From positions 1 through 40,235 of IMG/VR virus record IMGVR_UViG_3300009108_000022: a stretch of 40,235 nt of DNA; one strand, 5' to 3'. Below the pieces are notes generated by a model. The model searched no databases and was not told the DNA's origin. It saw only the letters and a program-made list of their open reading frames with translations. Positions within the stretch are counted from its first letter, which is position 1. Every line of letters starts with the position of its first letter. The DNA comes from a virus. Shown here in pieces: positions 3,591-33,376 of this stretch. The position numbers and the translations under genes were made by a program.

Positions 3591-3618
3591 TAGACAAATA
3601 CAATTTTTGTGATATAAT
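3591..3618 (+). promoter_or_regulatory. Rightward sigma70-type promoter, divergent from the early promoter
   Basis: Plus strand TAGACA (3591-3596), 16-base spacer, TATAAT (3613-3618), giving a predicted start near 3625. One mismatch to the -35 consensus and a perfect -10. The second copy of GACAAATAC (3593-3601) overlaps this -35 box. No protein gene of convincing length starts within 250 bases downstream, so the product may be an RNA or the read-through transcript for the small gene at 3900. Confidence 0.65.
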
Positions 3619-3859
3619 TAATATCGAGTAGTTGACTCTTAAAATTATGTGGCCTGACCGTGCCACCATCAACTGAATAGCGGTTATCGAATTACGGGGG
3701 CTTAGGACGGCCCGGTAAACAGGCATAAATTGACGCATGGTGTGGGGTTTCGCCGCCTCATTGTTTAAATAAAATGGCACCTGATAAACCGTAACGATAA
3801 ACCCACGTGATAATGGCCACAAGAGCCTAGCGTGATTATAGCCGGTCAATTCGGTCTTA
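3619..3859 (+). ncRNA. Candidate structured noncoding RNA region
   Basis: No convincing gene in about 240 bases downstream of a perfect -10 box; only scattered reading frames of about a dozen codons or fewer on this strand. The segment can close on itself: TGTGGCC (3648-3654) pairs with GGCCACA (3815-3821), extended across an 8-base bulge by CTCT (3636-3639) with AGAG (3822-3825). Inside, GGTTATCG (3682-3689) can pair with CGATAAACC (3795-3803, one bulged A) or alternatively with GATAAACC (3783-3790). A minus-strand frame of 96 codons crosses it but has no ribosome site and low-complexity composition. Structure and strand are inference from hand-found complementarity. Confidence 0.4.
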
Positions 3860-3888
3860 TTGACAACTATGCCCAGAATAATTATATT
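3860..3888 (+). promoter_or_regulatory. Near-consensus rightward promoter next to the 54-aa gene
   Basis: TTGACA (3860-3865), exactly 17 bases, TATATT (3883-3888). Predicted start about 3895, only some 5 bases before the ATG at 3900, so a transcript from this promoter would be nearly leaderless with respect to that gene. It is one of the best promoter matches in the window. Confidence 0.75.
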
Positions 3889-3899
3889 AGAGTTTCCTA

Positions 3900-4064
3900 A
3901 TGGATAAGGACAAGCGACGGGTTAGACGTAACCTAGTAGCAAAACACGCGAGAAAGTACAACCGGTCAGAATACCATGAGCCAAGTGTGGTTTATAAGAG
4001 AAAGAATAAGCACCCTGTACGCGATTTTGATCCTTATGGTGGGGGTAGTACTGGTCGCTACTGA
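3900..4064 (+). CDS. Small basic protein, 54 aa (possible phage ArfA-like/RNA-binding miniprotein)
   Basis: Short gene directly downstream of a strong rightward promoter. The product is very basic: it begins MDKDKRRVRRNLVAKHARKY and has a second basic patch, VVYKRKNKHPVRD, then a Gly-rich tail ending STGRY. The arrangement NxVAKH...YNR...YKRKxKH resembles small basic phage proteins that have been grouped with alternative ribosome-rescue factors; I hold that only as a weak resemblance. Weak ribosome site (TAGAG) and a possibly leaderless mRNA. It is the only plus-strand gene between 1 and 5902 and converges on the terminator at 4125-4150. Other options: RNA- or DNA-binding accessory protein. 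Confidence 0.55.
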   Translation: MDKDKRRVRRNLVAKHARKYNRSEYHEPSVVYKRKNKHPVRDFDPYGGGSTGRY

Positions 4065-4124: not shown

Positions 4125-4150
4125 AAAAAAAACCGCCCCTGAGGGCGGTT
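4125..4150 (-). terminator. Intrinsic terminator of the GP88/zinc-protein transcript
   Basis: On the minus strand an 8-bp stem AACCGCCC/GGGCGGTT (4150-4143 with 4138-4131) with a 4-base loop, followed by an eight-T run (4132-4125). It lies about 30 bases beyond the stop of the 64-residue gene, and on the plus strand it faces the small gene ending at 4064, where it lacks a T run and would be weaker. Confidence 0.9.
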
Positions 4151-4178: not shown

Positions 4179-4373
4179 TTACTTTATCATGGTGTTACAA
4201 TTAGCACACGATTCTGGTGCCATTACCTCATTGCATCCGTTCCAGCCATTGTAATTATCCCTACTGTGGTCCCTATGGCAAAAATCTGAGCAATAATAAT
4301 TAGCGTCTACCACGTCACCGGTGTGGTCTTCTATTAGGTGCGTGTGTACGGTTATATATGATTCTCTACTCAT
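4179..4373 (-). CDS. Cysteine-rich zinc-binding miniprotein, 64 aa
   Basis: Small protein with five cysteines and clustered histidines in the C-terminal two thirds: C28-x3-C32-H33, C47, then C56-x2-C59 (SCANC). The spacing suggests one structural zinc site (C28/C32 or H33 with C56/C59). Similar small zinc-ribbon-like proteins are common in phages without known role. Its ATG overlaps the stop of the GP88-like gene (ATGA, 4373-4370), so the two are coupled and probably work in the same process. A strong terminator follows. Function not assignable. Confidence 0.75.
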   Translation of the reverse strand: MSRESYITVHTHLIEDHTGDVVDANYYCSDFCHRDHSRDNYNGWNGCNEVMAPESCANCNTMIK

Positions 4374-4954
4374 TTGACGGCCTCCACTATTACGTTAATT
4401 CCTGAGTCTTTACGGTAGCAAGCTAGGCACTCTATACACTTTTTGCCGGTGCAATTCTGTGGCGTGTTGTCTGCCTGTACGTTATTAAAAACCTTATCGA
4501 AGCCACGCGGAACCGCTATAGGCTTATCAATGCGCGGATTGCTGAATATCAGGATGAGGTTTTTAGGCTGCTTGTAATGCTTATGATAATCGCGAATCAG
4601 TCCAGCGCGCTTAGTCCAGATAACCACGTTACAATGCGGATTTTTGAGCGCGATGGCATGGCAGTTTATTAGGTGTGTCATATTGATTAATTCGCCATGC
4701 CCATTGATTCTAACGAATGCATGGTTTAGCACTGGTAGATCGTCCCAACGAATGGGTCTTGAGAATGCTTCGGAATTACGCTCAAATGCTGGTACGCAGT
4801 TTTTACGGAACGTCGATAGCATCCGGTGAGAATAGCACTCACCACATATGGTGTCCGTGTCTTTCTGACGTATGCAAAATGGGTTGCTAGTGGTATTCGT
4901 GTTATAGGCTGGAATACCCTTTAACTTACCGCTCATTTTAGATAGCTGGATCAT
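4370..4954 (-). CDS. GP88-like phage protein with two cysteine clusters, 194 aa
   Basis: Resembles the phage GP88-type family (function unknown): an N-terminal KMSGKLKGIPAYNTNTTSNP motif with C27, then C37-x2-C40 (ICGECY), a conserved middle with INGHGELINMTHL and NVVIWTKRAGL, and a C-terminal cluster C168-x4-C173-x2-C176-x2-C179. The last cluster has spacing suited to an iron-sulfur cluster or zinc. Possible promoter TGGTACAAT at 4990-4982 and GAGG before the ATG. It forms a two-gene unit with the zinc miniprotein, bounded on both sides by intrinsic terminators, which is the layout of a self-contained accessory cassette. Redox or metal-dependent activity is inference. Confidence 0.72.
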   Translation of the reverse strand: MIQLSKMSGKLKGIPAYNTNTTSNPFCIRQKDTDTICGECYSHRMLSTFRKNCVPAFERNSEAFSRPIRWDDLPVLNHAFVRINGHGELINMTHLINCHAIALKNPHCNVVIWTKRAGLIRDYHKHYKQPKNLILIFSNPRIDKPIAVPRGFDKVFNNVQADNTPQNCTGKKCIECLACYRKDSGINVIVEAVK

Positions 4955-4981
4955 TTTAATATCCTCAGTTATTGATAATTC

Positions 4982-4990
4982 ATTGTACCA
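4982..4990 (-). promoter_or_regulatory. Possible extended -10 promoter for the GP88-like gene
   Basis: TGGTACAAT on the minus strand (TGn extended -10 plus TACAAT), immediately downstream of the terminator at 4992-5018 and about 28 bases before the ATG at 4954. No -35 box of quality is visible, as expected for extended -10 promoters. The GTACAAT core recurs at 5605-5599 ahead of the upstream gene trio. Confidence 0.45.
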
Positions 4991-4991
4991 T

Positions 4992-5018
4992 AAAAAAAGC
5001 CGCCCTAAAAGAGCGGCT
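4992..5018 (-). terminator. Intrinsic terminator after the three small leftward genes
   Basis: Minus strand stem AGCCGC/GCGGCT (5018-5013 with 5003-4998), 9-base loop, then a run of seven T (4998-4992). It lies 18 bases past the stop of the 59-residue gene and separates the trio of small genes from the GP88 cassette. Confidence 0.85.
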
Positions 5019-5549: not shown

Positions 5550-5902
5550 TGGTAGTACTCTTTAGTTAAGGAAGTAATAGGATAACCGATGTTCTGATAT
5601 TGTACAGATAAATGTTTTTATGGGGTTATTAGTTCTATTGATGTTCCTACCCCAAACACACACGCCACTACTAGTAGTTCGATGTTCCATGGTTGTCGGT
5701 TTGCCTAGTTCCAGTTTAAACCCAAACTAATGTAGGGTTATTGGACCCCGATGCGTCTATCCTCCTTGTGCTTGATAGAAGAGGGTCGCTTGATGTGGCC
5801 GCTACGCCGACCCCACCCGGCCCCCTTTTTTTTCTATGATGTATGATTTTATTCTACCCACTCACCATCGGTAATATCCAACCTATATAAGAAAACGCTA
5901 AT
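5550..5902. promoter_or_regulatory. Noncoding leader between the leftward trio and the late operon, with several hairpins
   Basis: About 350 bases without a gene on either strand. Plus-strand hairpins in order: TGGGGT/ACCCCA (5621-5654), GTTCCA with AACCC/GGGTT inside and TGGAC (5708-5746), TCTATC/GATAGA (5756-5779), GGGTCG/CGACCC (5783-5813), then a C-rich stretch and T8 (5826-5833). GTACAAT on the minus strand at 5605-5599 may serve the leftward trio. No consensus sigma70 promoter for the late genes was found, nor a tRNA cloverleaf. It could hold the late promoter under phage control, a small RNA, or the packaging start; the sequence does not decide. Confidence 0.45.
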
Positions 5903-6274
5903 ATGGCTAACGGGAAAAAAGATTACCGCAAGAAGGTTATGCCTTATGACAGGGAGGCTAAAAAGAGGAATTTAACTTTAGGGCAGTTAAATGCGTTGCG
6001 ACATTTATGGCTGGTTCAAAAAATTGGAAGACCTTTGGCTGATGCTAGGGAAGGAAATAGAAGCACAAATATACCATTCCTAAAAGGGTTATTGACTAGT
6101 AATGATGATCCTATAGATTACTGGAATAATCGGGTTGCTGACAAATTTTTGGGGGGAGGCACTAGCTTGATGAGCCTACACCCAAGAAATTCTTTTCAGA
6201 GGGCTGCTGATAGTATAGAGTGGTTCCCTAGAATGAGAAATCCTCAATATAAATGGAAAATTACTGGAAGATGA
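5903..6274 (+). CDS. First late-operon protein, unknown, 123 aa
   Basis: Function unknown. Basic N-terminus (MANGKKDYRKKVMPYDREAK), then NALRHLWLVQKIGRPLADAR (residues 30-49) and DPIDYWNNRVADKFLGGG. The layout of Arg-His, a conserved acidic residue and a paired Asn (R-H ... E-G-N ... D-x-x-N-N-x-x-A) is reminiscent of DUF6973-type domains, but the match is distant and I do not rely on it. There is no signal peptide or membrane segment. It is followed by a membrane protein in an ATGA overlap. If enzymatic, it is one of the few unassigned candidates for a wall-active or lysis role in this window. Confidence 0.65.
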   Translation: MANGKKDYRKKVMPYDREAKKRNLTLGQLNALRHLWLVQKIGRPLADAREGNRSTNIPFLKGLLTSNDDPIDYWNNRVADKFLGGGTSLMSLHPRNSFQRAADSIEWFPRMRNPQYKWKITGR

Positions 6275-32811: not shown

Positions 32812-33077
32812 TGGAAGAGCAAAAGAACGGCTGGCACATGAGCAAGAGCCTCAGTGTATCACACTTACTTAGCACCATAGCTATTGCTGTCGGATTCTTT
32901 ACCTATGTTACTGGCATAGAGCAAGAGACAGTCGTTAATAAGATGGAATTAAAAAGCCTATCCGAAAGAATGGATAGAACAGACGAGAGACACAGCGAAC
33001 AATTCAGTGAAATAAAAGATATGTTGAAATCACTTACAATTAAAATTGATAACTTGGGGCATCGAAGTGTTCAATGA
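32811..33077 (+). CDS. Small membrane protein, 88 aa (holin-like candidate)
   Basis: Begins MEEQKNGWHMSKSLSVSHLL with one membrane segment (about 14-36), then a soluble charged helix (MELKSLSERMDRTDERHSEQ). Small proteins starting E-x-x-x-G-W-x-(L/M)-S-K with one hydrophobic helix are frequent near lysis genes of phages. TAATG at the start; the stop overlaps the Fe-S carrier gene (ATGA). Holin function cannot be shown from sequence. Confidence 0.66.
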   Translation: MEEQKNGWHMSKSLSVSHLLSTIAIAVGFFTYVTGIEQETVVNKMELKSLSERMDRTDERHSEQFSEIKDMLKSLTIKIDNLGHRSVQ

Positions 33078-33376
33078 CCATTACCCCGACAGCGGCAAAG
33101 AAGATAGAGGCGATCCTGACCGATTCAGAATGTTTAAGGATCGAAGTCAATGGCGGTGGTTGCAGCGGATTCACGGTTGGCTTGTCCAAGACGAGTGGGA
33201 GAGAAAAAGACGACACGCTATTGAGCGAGAATACGGTTATAGACTCCACCTCGGCGGCGTATTTAATGAACGCGACCCTAGACTGGATCGATGACCCATT
33301 CTCCCCTACATTCAAATTCGACATCCCCAACACTAAGTCATGTGGTTGCGGTAATTCATTTCAACTTGAACCATGA
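33074..33376 (+). CDS. A-type iron-sulfur cluster carrier (IscA/ErpA/SufA family)
   Basis: Carrier that receives and hands on Fe-S clusters. All three cluster ligands are present: C30 in RIEVNGGGCSGF and C90, C92 in NTKSCGCGNSF. The opening ITPTAAKKIEAIL and the helix before the C-terminal loop are typical. Length 100 residues, slightly short of bacterial IscA (about 107). It is embedded between membrane proteins of the late operon by ATGA overlaps on both sides, so it is a late gene rather than part of nucleotide metabolism. Late expression suggests maturation of a virion or late Fe-S protein; inference. Confidence 0.9.
   Translation: MTITPTAAKKIEAILTDSECLRIEVNGGGCSGFTVGLSKTSGREKDDTLLSENTVIDSTSAAYLMNATLDWIDDPFSPTFKFDIPNTKSCGCGNSFQLEP

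Follow-up and report, generated by a model that had tools for sequence, protein, structure and literature searches.

A divergent GP88-like phage protein with two conserved cysteine clusters and a possible kinship to radical-SAM proteins

GP88 (Pfam PF17338, the mycobacteriophage gp88 family) and DUF5131 (PF07505, the phage Gp37/Gp68 proteins) are common viral families for which the literature searched, under the names GP88, PF17338, DUF5131 and Gp37/Gp68, reports no function; literature matches to TcmP were set aside as a functional lead, being annotation mentions only. Canonical GP88 proteins have about 235-295 residues and contain a C-x6-9-C-x3-C motif, together with the R-x-N-x-x-S/G-D/E and TK motifs. 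DUF5131 proteins share a CxnCxxCY motif, a TKR motif after strand 3 and the pattern N-x3-G/F-x-S, and their C-terminal half is marked by GGESG and FFFKQWG.

Here we describe a GP88-like protein encoded by the window, which is the whole analysed stretch of 40,235 nucleotides, a 40-kb record of a marine-type phage. The R-x-N-x-x-S/G-D/E and TK motifs of GP88 are recognisable in this protein, and its gene probably heads an early module, as GP88 does in several phages. It differs from canonical GP88 in being shorter (194 residues), in the spacing of its first cysteine motif (C-x9-C-x2-CY) and in having a C-terminal Cys4 cluster, which canonical members lack. This second cluster defines a divergent subfamily of GP88.

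Layout of the locus and its surroundings

The terminase, helicase and ribonucleotide reductase genes of the window were identified by profile, and its portal and capsid genes were assigned by reading of the ORFs. The ribonucleotide reductase (PF02867; 38646-40175, minus strand) shows a weak match to the class II (B12-dependent) insertion domain. The features of the GP88-like locus are listed in Table 1.

Table 1. Coordinates of the GP88-like locus within the window
Feature	Position	Strand	Basis
GP88-like protein gene, 194 aa	4954..4370	-	ORF call; 76 viral relatives; AlphaFold2 pLDDT 91.6; Foldseek viral matches; Pfam GP88 in 32/32
Five-cysteine miniprotein gene, 64 aa	4373..4179	-	29 related viral loci; Cys and WNGC kept; CSDxC...GWNGC...CxxC family
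Cys cluster I codons, C27-x9-C37-x2-C40-Y41	4835..4876	-	Conservation
H86-G87-E88 codons, after the second main strand (80-83)	4691..4699	-	Putative counterpart of the GGE-motif position of radical-SAM enzymes
Cys cluster II codons, C168-x4-C173-x2-C176-x2-C179-Y180	4418..4453	-	Conservation; canonical GP88 without cluster II
Intrinsic terminator upstream of the GP88-like gene, ending the preceding gene	4998..5018	-	9-bp stem, 6 GC, T-tract
Intrinsic terminator downstream of the miniprotein gene	4131..4150	-	8-bp stem, 6 GC, T-tract
Candidate extended -10 promoter, TGGTACAAT	4990-4982	-	Read from the sequence; directly after the first T-tract
Ribosome-binding site GAGGA, 7 nt before the ATG of the GP88-like gene	4962..4966	-	Sequence

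An earlier note on this DNA had described a GP88-like protein with seven cysteines in two groups, coupled to a five-cysteine miniprotein and enclosed by two strong terminators, and these elements were confirmed. The spacings of C27, C37, C40, C168, C173, C176 and C179 are exactly as it gave them, the miniprotein contains five cysteines (C28, C32, C47, C56 and C59), and the two ORFs overlap via ATGA. Of the 13 terminator sites in 12 kb, where shuffles would give 9.3, the flanking pair ranks as the strongest two; the downstream one lies just outside the interval 4179-5018. Related phages likewise have strong terminators downstream, placed behind GP88 itself or behind GP88 and one small ORF. An operon-like unit of the two genes, closed by a terminator, is supported. 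The extended -10 that the note had placed at the first terminator is present after the T-tract, but the scanner accepted no -35 element for TGGTACAAT, and the extended -10 is not kept in relatives. More generally, the terminator and promoter flanks of the GP88-like gene are not kept in related phages.

In about 24 related phages, the gene occupies the same place, between the replication genes and the terminase. GP88 opens its module, or lies close to the module's first gene, in CRP-5, CRP-235, HMO-2011 and the mycobacteriophages Flux and Wizard007. In two contigs (L047 and L050), the GP88-like gene shares 4 nt with the gene behind it, whose product of about 620 aa resembles family A DNA polymerases as read from the sequence. 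The gene position, the placement at the module head and the polymerase overlap point to early expression.

Two other stretches near the locus were observed. At 3622-3872 (plus strand), a structured RNA candidate of about 250 nt is kept in related phages; it follows a strong promoter-like TAGACA-16-TATAAT site (3591-3618), precedes a small basic ORF (3900-4064) and matches nothing in Rfam at thresholds as lax as E<=5. Among 15 related phage sequences, 97.9% of the cells are paired. Double changes occur in 54 cells, whereas shuffles give 17.6 and slid versions no more than 5; these controls somewhat overstate the covariation because the helices were picked from the same alignment. Two of the helices (alignment columns 36-39/48-51 and 42-47/66-71) combine into an H-type pseudoknot in which pairing is 100%. 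From the aligned sequences, the double changes are hard to explain other than by a conserved structure. The second stretch, 5813-5912, is shared by a dozen related phages at 72-82% identity and is partly non-coding; it runs across a T-tract near 5822 and into the start of the ORF at 5903, and is possibly a late promoter or regulatory region.

Family, conservation and fold of the GP88-like protein

The Pfam GP88 profile matches the window protein at E=5e-4 with 20.4 bits, below the cut-off of 24.4. The GP88 affinity proposed in the earlier note is carried by the relatives, since the profile matches all 32 aligned members at E<=1 (best 1.9e-10) and 13 of 22 records exceed the curated cut-off, reaching 38.7 bits. 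These matches support the assignment of the protein to the GP88 family.

A scan of viral contigs yielded 76 relatives, which were aligned in 76 rows. Some of the seeds of the scan were peptides from around the two Cys motifs, which biases it toward them. In this alignment, cluster I is kept at C27 in 73/76, and at C37, C40 and Y41 in 76/76, whereas cluster II is kept at C168 in 76/76, C173 and C176 in 75/76 and C179 in 74/76, the remainder being gaps. The cysteines outside the clusters (C53, C98 and C108) vary. Cluster I is also invariant in the family alignment used for profile comparison (A1). The conservation extends to H86 (75/76), G87 and E88 (both 76/76), and R82, N91, N97, W113-T114-K115, S138-N139, F152, F156, N167 and Y180 are invariant or nearly so. 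A genome scan that started from the HGE and FNN motifs recovered relatives from metagenome-assembled genomes of Woesearchaeota, Bacteroidetes and Bathyarchaeota, and the full-length ones keep both Cys clusters. All seven cluster cysteines are thus nearly or fully invariant among the 76 sequences, as the earlier note would lead one to expect, and the alignments support a functional constraint on the double cluster. Three phage records hold a relative (Roseobacter phage CRP-5, Pelagibacter phage Greip and a Methanomicrobiales virus), and many viruses of bacteria and archaea retain the protein.

The AlphaFold2 model (pLDDT 91.6, pTM 0.89) is a short alpha/beta barrel of six strands (residues 16-17, 80-83, 109-114, 133-142, 154-159 and 188-192). 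A Foldseek search of BFVD with this model returned mainly GP88 proteins, followed by DUF7227 and Gp37/Gp68 proteins. The best match is an unnamed protein (E=9e-10, TM 0.75), and the best named one is A0A514K2X2, a GP88 protein of a Nitrosopumilus virus (TM 0.69, E=4e-8); the others have TM values of 0.47-0.66. The predicted structure is accordingly that of known GP88 members, which establishes the fold class at the level of the model. There are also weak BFVD matches to viral proteins annotated as 'radical SAM' and '4Fe-4S single cluster'. Against the PDB, no solved structure was matched at E<0.001; TIM barrels lead the list, well ahead of the radical-SAM enzymes BtrN (rank 26) and NifB (rank 44). 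Sequence searches for solved structures gave nothing useful for the GP88-like protein or the miniprotein.

Relation to DUF5131 and radical-SAM proteins

HHalign of the family alignment with DUF5131 gave a probability of 91% (E=9e-7) in the register CxnCxxCY / TKR / S, in which cluster I aligns with C-x7-C-x2-CY of DUF5131. Pfam matches to DUF5131 were found in 21 of the 32 aligned members, the best at E=0.001; the window protein itself stays below the cut-off (E=0.04, 13.8 against 28.9 bits). These profile comparisons indicate homology to DUF5131 in the N-terminal half, from the cysteines to TKR. The C-terminal half of DUF5131, with its GGESG and FFFKQWG motifs, is absent from the window protein, which has cluster II there instead.

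DUF5131 in turn aligns with SPL-like radical-SAM proteins (probability 73%, E=3e-5) in the register GCxxGCxYCYA / SMSD-SGxTD / LTKR-ITKN, and the SPL-like profile aligns with the generic radical-SAM profile at 99.8%. Direct HHalign of the family alignment with the generic or SPL-like radical-SAM profiles was not significant (E=0.06-0.08), and a Pfam scan of the 32 members gave no PF04055 match; the relation is therefore transitive. Through DUF5131, the window protein is in register with SPL-like, PA0069-type radical-SAM proteins (PF04055) over the Cys motif, the strand-2 motif and TK, whereas it has half their size and a CX9CX2C motif. Its three cysteines follow the first strand with a spacing of C-x9-C-x2-C, compared with the classical C-x3-C-x2-C. 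On this chain of alignments, a shared ancestry with radical-SAM proteins appears somewhat probable.

Neighbouring genes and possible roles of the protein

The earlier note had joined the GP88-like protein to the miniprotein as a metal- or Fe-S-dependent two-component system, and both to the phage's own Fe-S carrier as a metal-cofactor theme. The carrier at 33074-33376 (plus strand) is a genuine A-type Fe-S carrier (TIGR00049, 75.7 bits against a cut-off of 58.8). It is absent from 14 of 14 other GP88-like phage records, some being fragments, and the common theme is not borne out.

The miniprotein belongs to a separate, widespread family of small phage proteins, with relatives at 29 viral loci, in which H10, C28, W44-N45-G46-C47, C56 and C59 are invariant and C32 is nearly so; no Pfam or PHROG family was found for these GWNGC proteins. 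The window member differs from the relatives in an 8-residue N-terminal extension and in its GP88-like neighbour, the relatives being mostly alone. Its model (pLDDT 81.7, pTM 0.62) found nothing in the PDB with Foldseek (best E=3.1). The protein probably binds zinc. That the two genes form a dedicated metal-dependent two-component system is suggested by the ATGA overlap and the shared terminator, but none of the 79 GP88-like relatives adjoins a miniprotein relative, including those of the contigs L004 and L005, whose GP88 proteins are 94% and 91% identical to that of the window. GP88 is detectable in 6 of the 29 miniprotein-relative records and not in the other 23, several of which are fragments. 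What follows GP88 is a hypervariable slot that holds unrelated ORFs and has no excess of CxxC proteins (5/21 versus 18/150, Fisher p=0.17). The pair is not co-conserved, and the comparison of gene neighbourhoods largely refutes the pairing; a dedicated system is very improbable. The miniprotein is an unrelated accessory gene, presumably co-transcribed with the GP88-like gene by chance. In L083 (2507-3425) and its near twin L084 (4007-4925), a miniprotein relative lies 34 bp before a canonical GP88, the sole such adjacency seen, and in L088/L090 and L110 the two are about 0.7-1.4 kb apart. Such proximity would favour a pairing, and a weak functional association with GP88 in a wider sense may exist; we read it as shared residence in early modules. 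What stands of the two-component proposal is a likely Fe-S site in a constrained double Cys cluster, and what falls is the partnership with the miniprotein.

Two further accounts concern the GP88-like gene itself. It might be a moron, a single gene that brings its own promoter and terminator and recently moved between phages as a cassette. The terminators on both sides and the extended -10 would suit this account, as would the DNA similarity to L004 (88%) and L005 (82%), which ends at the gene ends, and the GP88 identity of 91-94% in these contigs, which exceeds that of the terminase (80%) and of ORF 6689 (79%). However, the promoter and flanks are not conserved, and in the about 24 related phages with GP88 at the same position its identity is 61-69%, compared with mostly 78-83% for the terminase; the gene is therefore a resident early gene, and we consider a moron improbable. 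Alternatively, the protein could be a zinc or non-redox Fe-S binder, a degenerate radical-SAM-like barrel that has lost catalysis and binds a host protein or nucleic acid. Its small size, the departure from CX3CX2C and the lack of direct significant similarity to radical-SAM profiles agree with this, and many early phage genes act by binding. On the other hand, HGE, WTK, SN, FN and N167 vary little or not at all, beyond what a scaffold would be expected to need, and the C-x2-C-x2-C spacing of cluster II is usual for [4Fe-4S] clusters and unusual for zinc. We hold a degenerate barrel to be possible and rather doubtful.

Our preferred reading, in which our confidence is evenly balanced, is that the divergent GP88 is a minimal radical-SAM-like Fe-S protein with cluster I and an auxiliary cluster II, probably acting early. 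The protein would be a minimal six-strand (beta/alpha) barrel, kin to DUF5131 and thereby to SPL-like (PA0069/COG1533-type) radical-SAM enzymes. C27, C37 and C40, after the first strand, would most likely bind a [4Fe-4S] cluster in which one iron is left open, and H86-G87-E88, after the second main strand, would lie where radical-SAM enzymes bind the amino group of SAM. C168, C173, C176 and C179, between the fifth and sixth strands, would carry the auxiliary second cluster. Both clusters are likely to bind Fe-S, and either could bind zinc instead. Active radical chemistry is a tentative and rather doubtful proposal. The protein is probably made at the head of the phage's early leftward genes, and may act soon after infection begins by modifying nucleic acid or a protein of the host; a nucleic-acid substrate, taken separately, is unlikely.

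With the tempting pairings with the miniprotein and the Fe-S carrier cleared away, the double cluster, the homology chain to SPL-like radical-SAM proteins and the early position give a concrete, testable biochemical prediction for two common viral families. In its fullest form, which is somewhat unlikely, the prediction is that alphaproteobacterial and archaeal viruses carry a minimal two-cluster radical-SAM-like subfamily that would serve as a host-takeover enzyme at the start of infection, modifying nucleic acid of either host or virus, or else a host protein.
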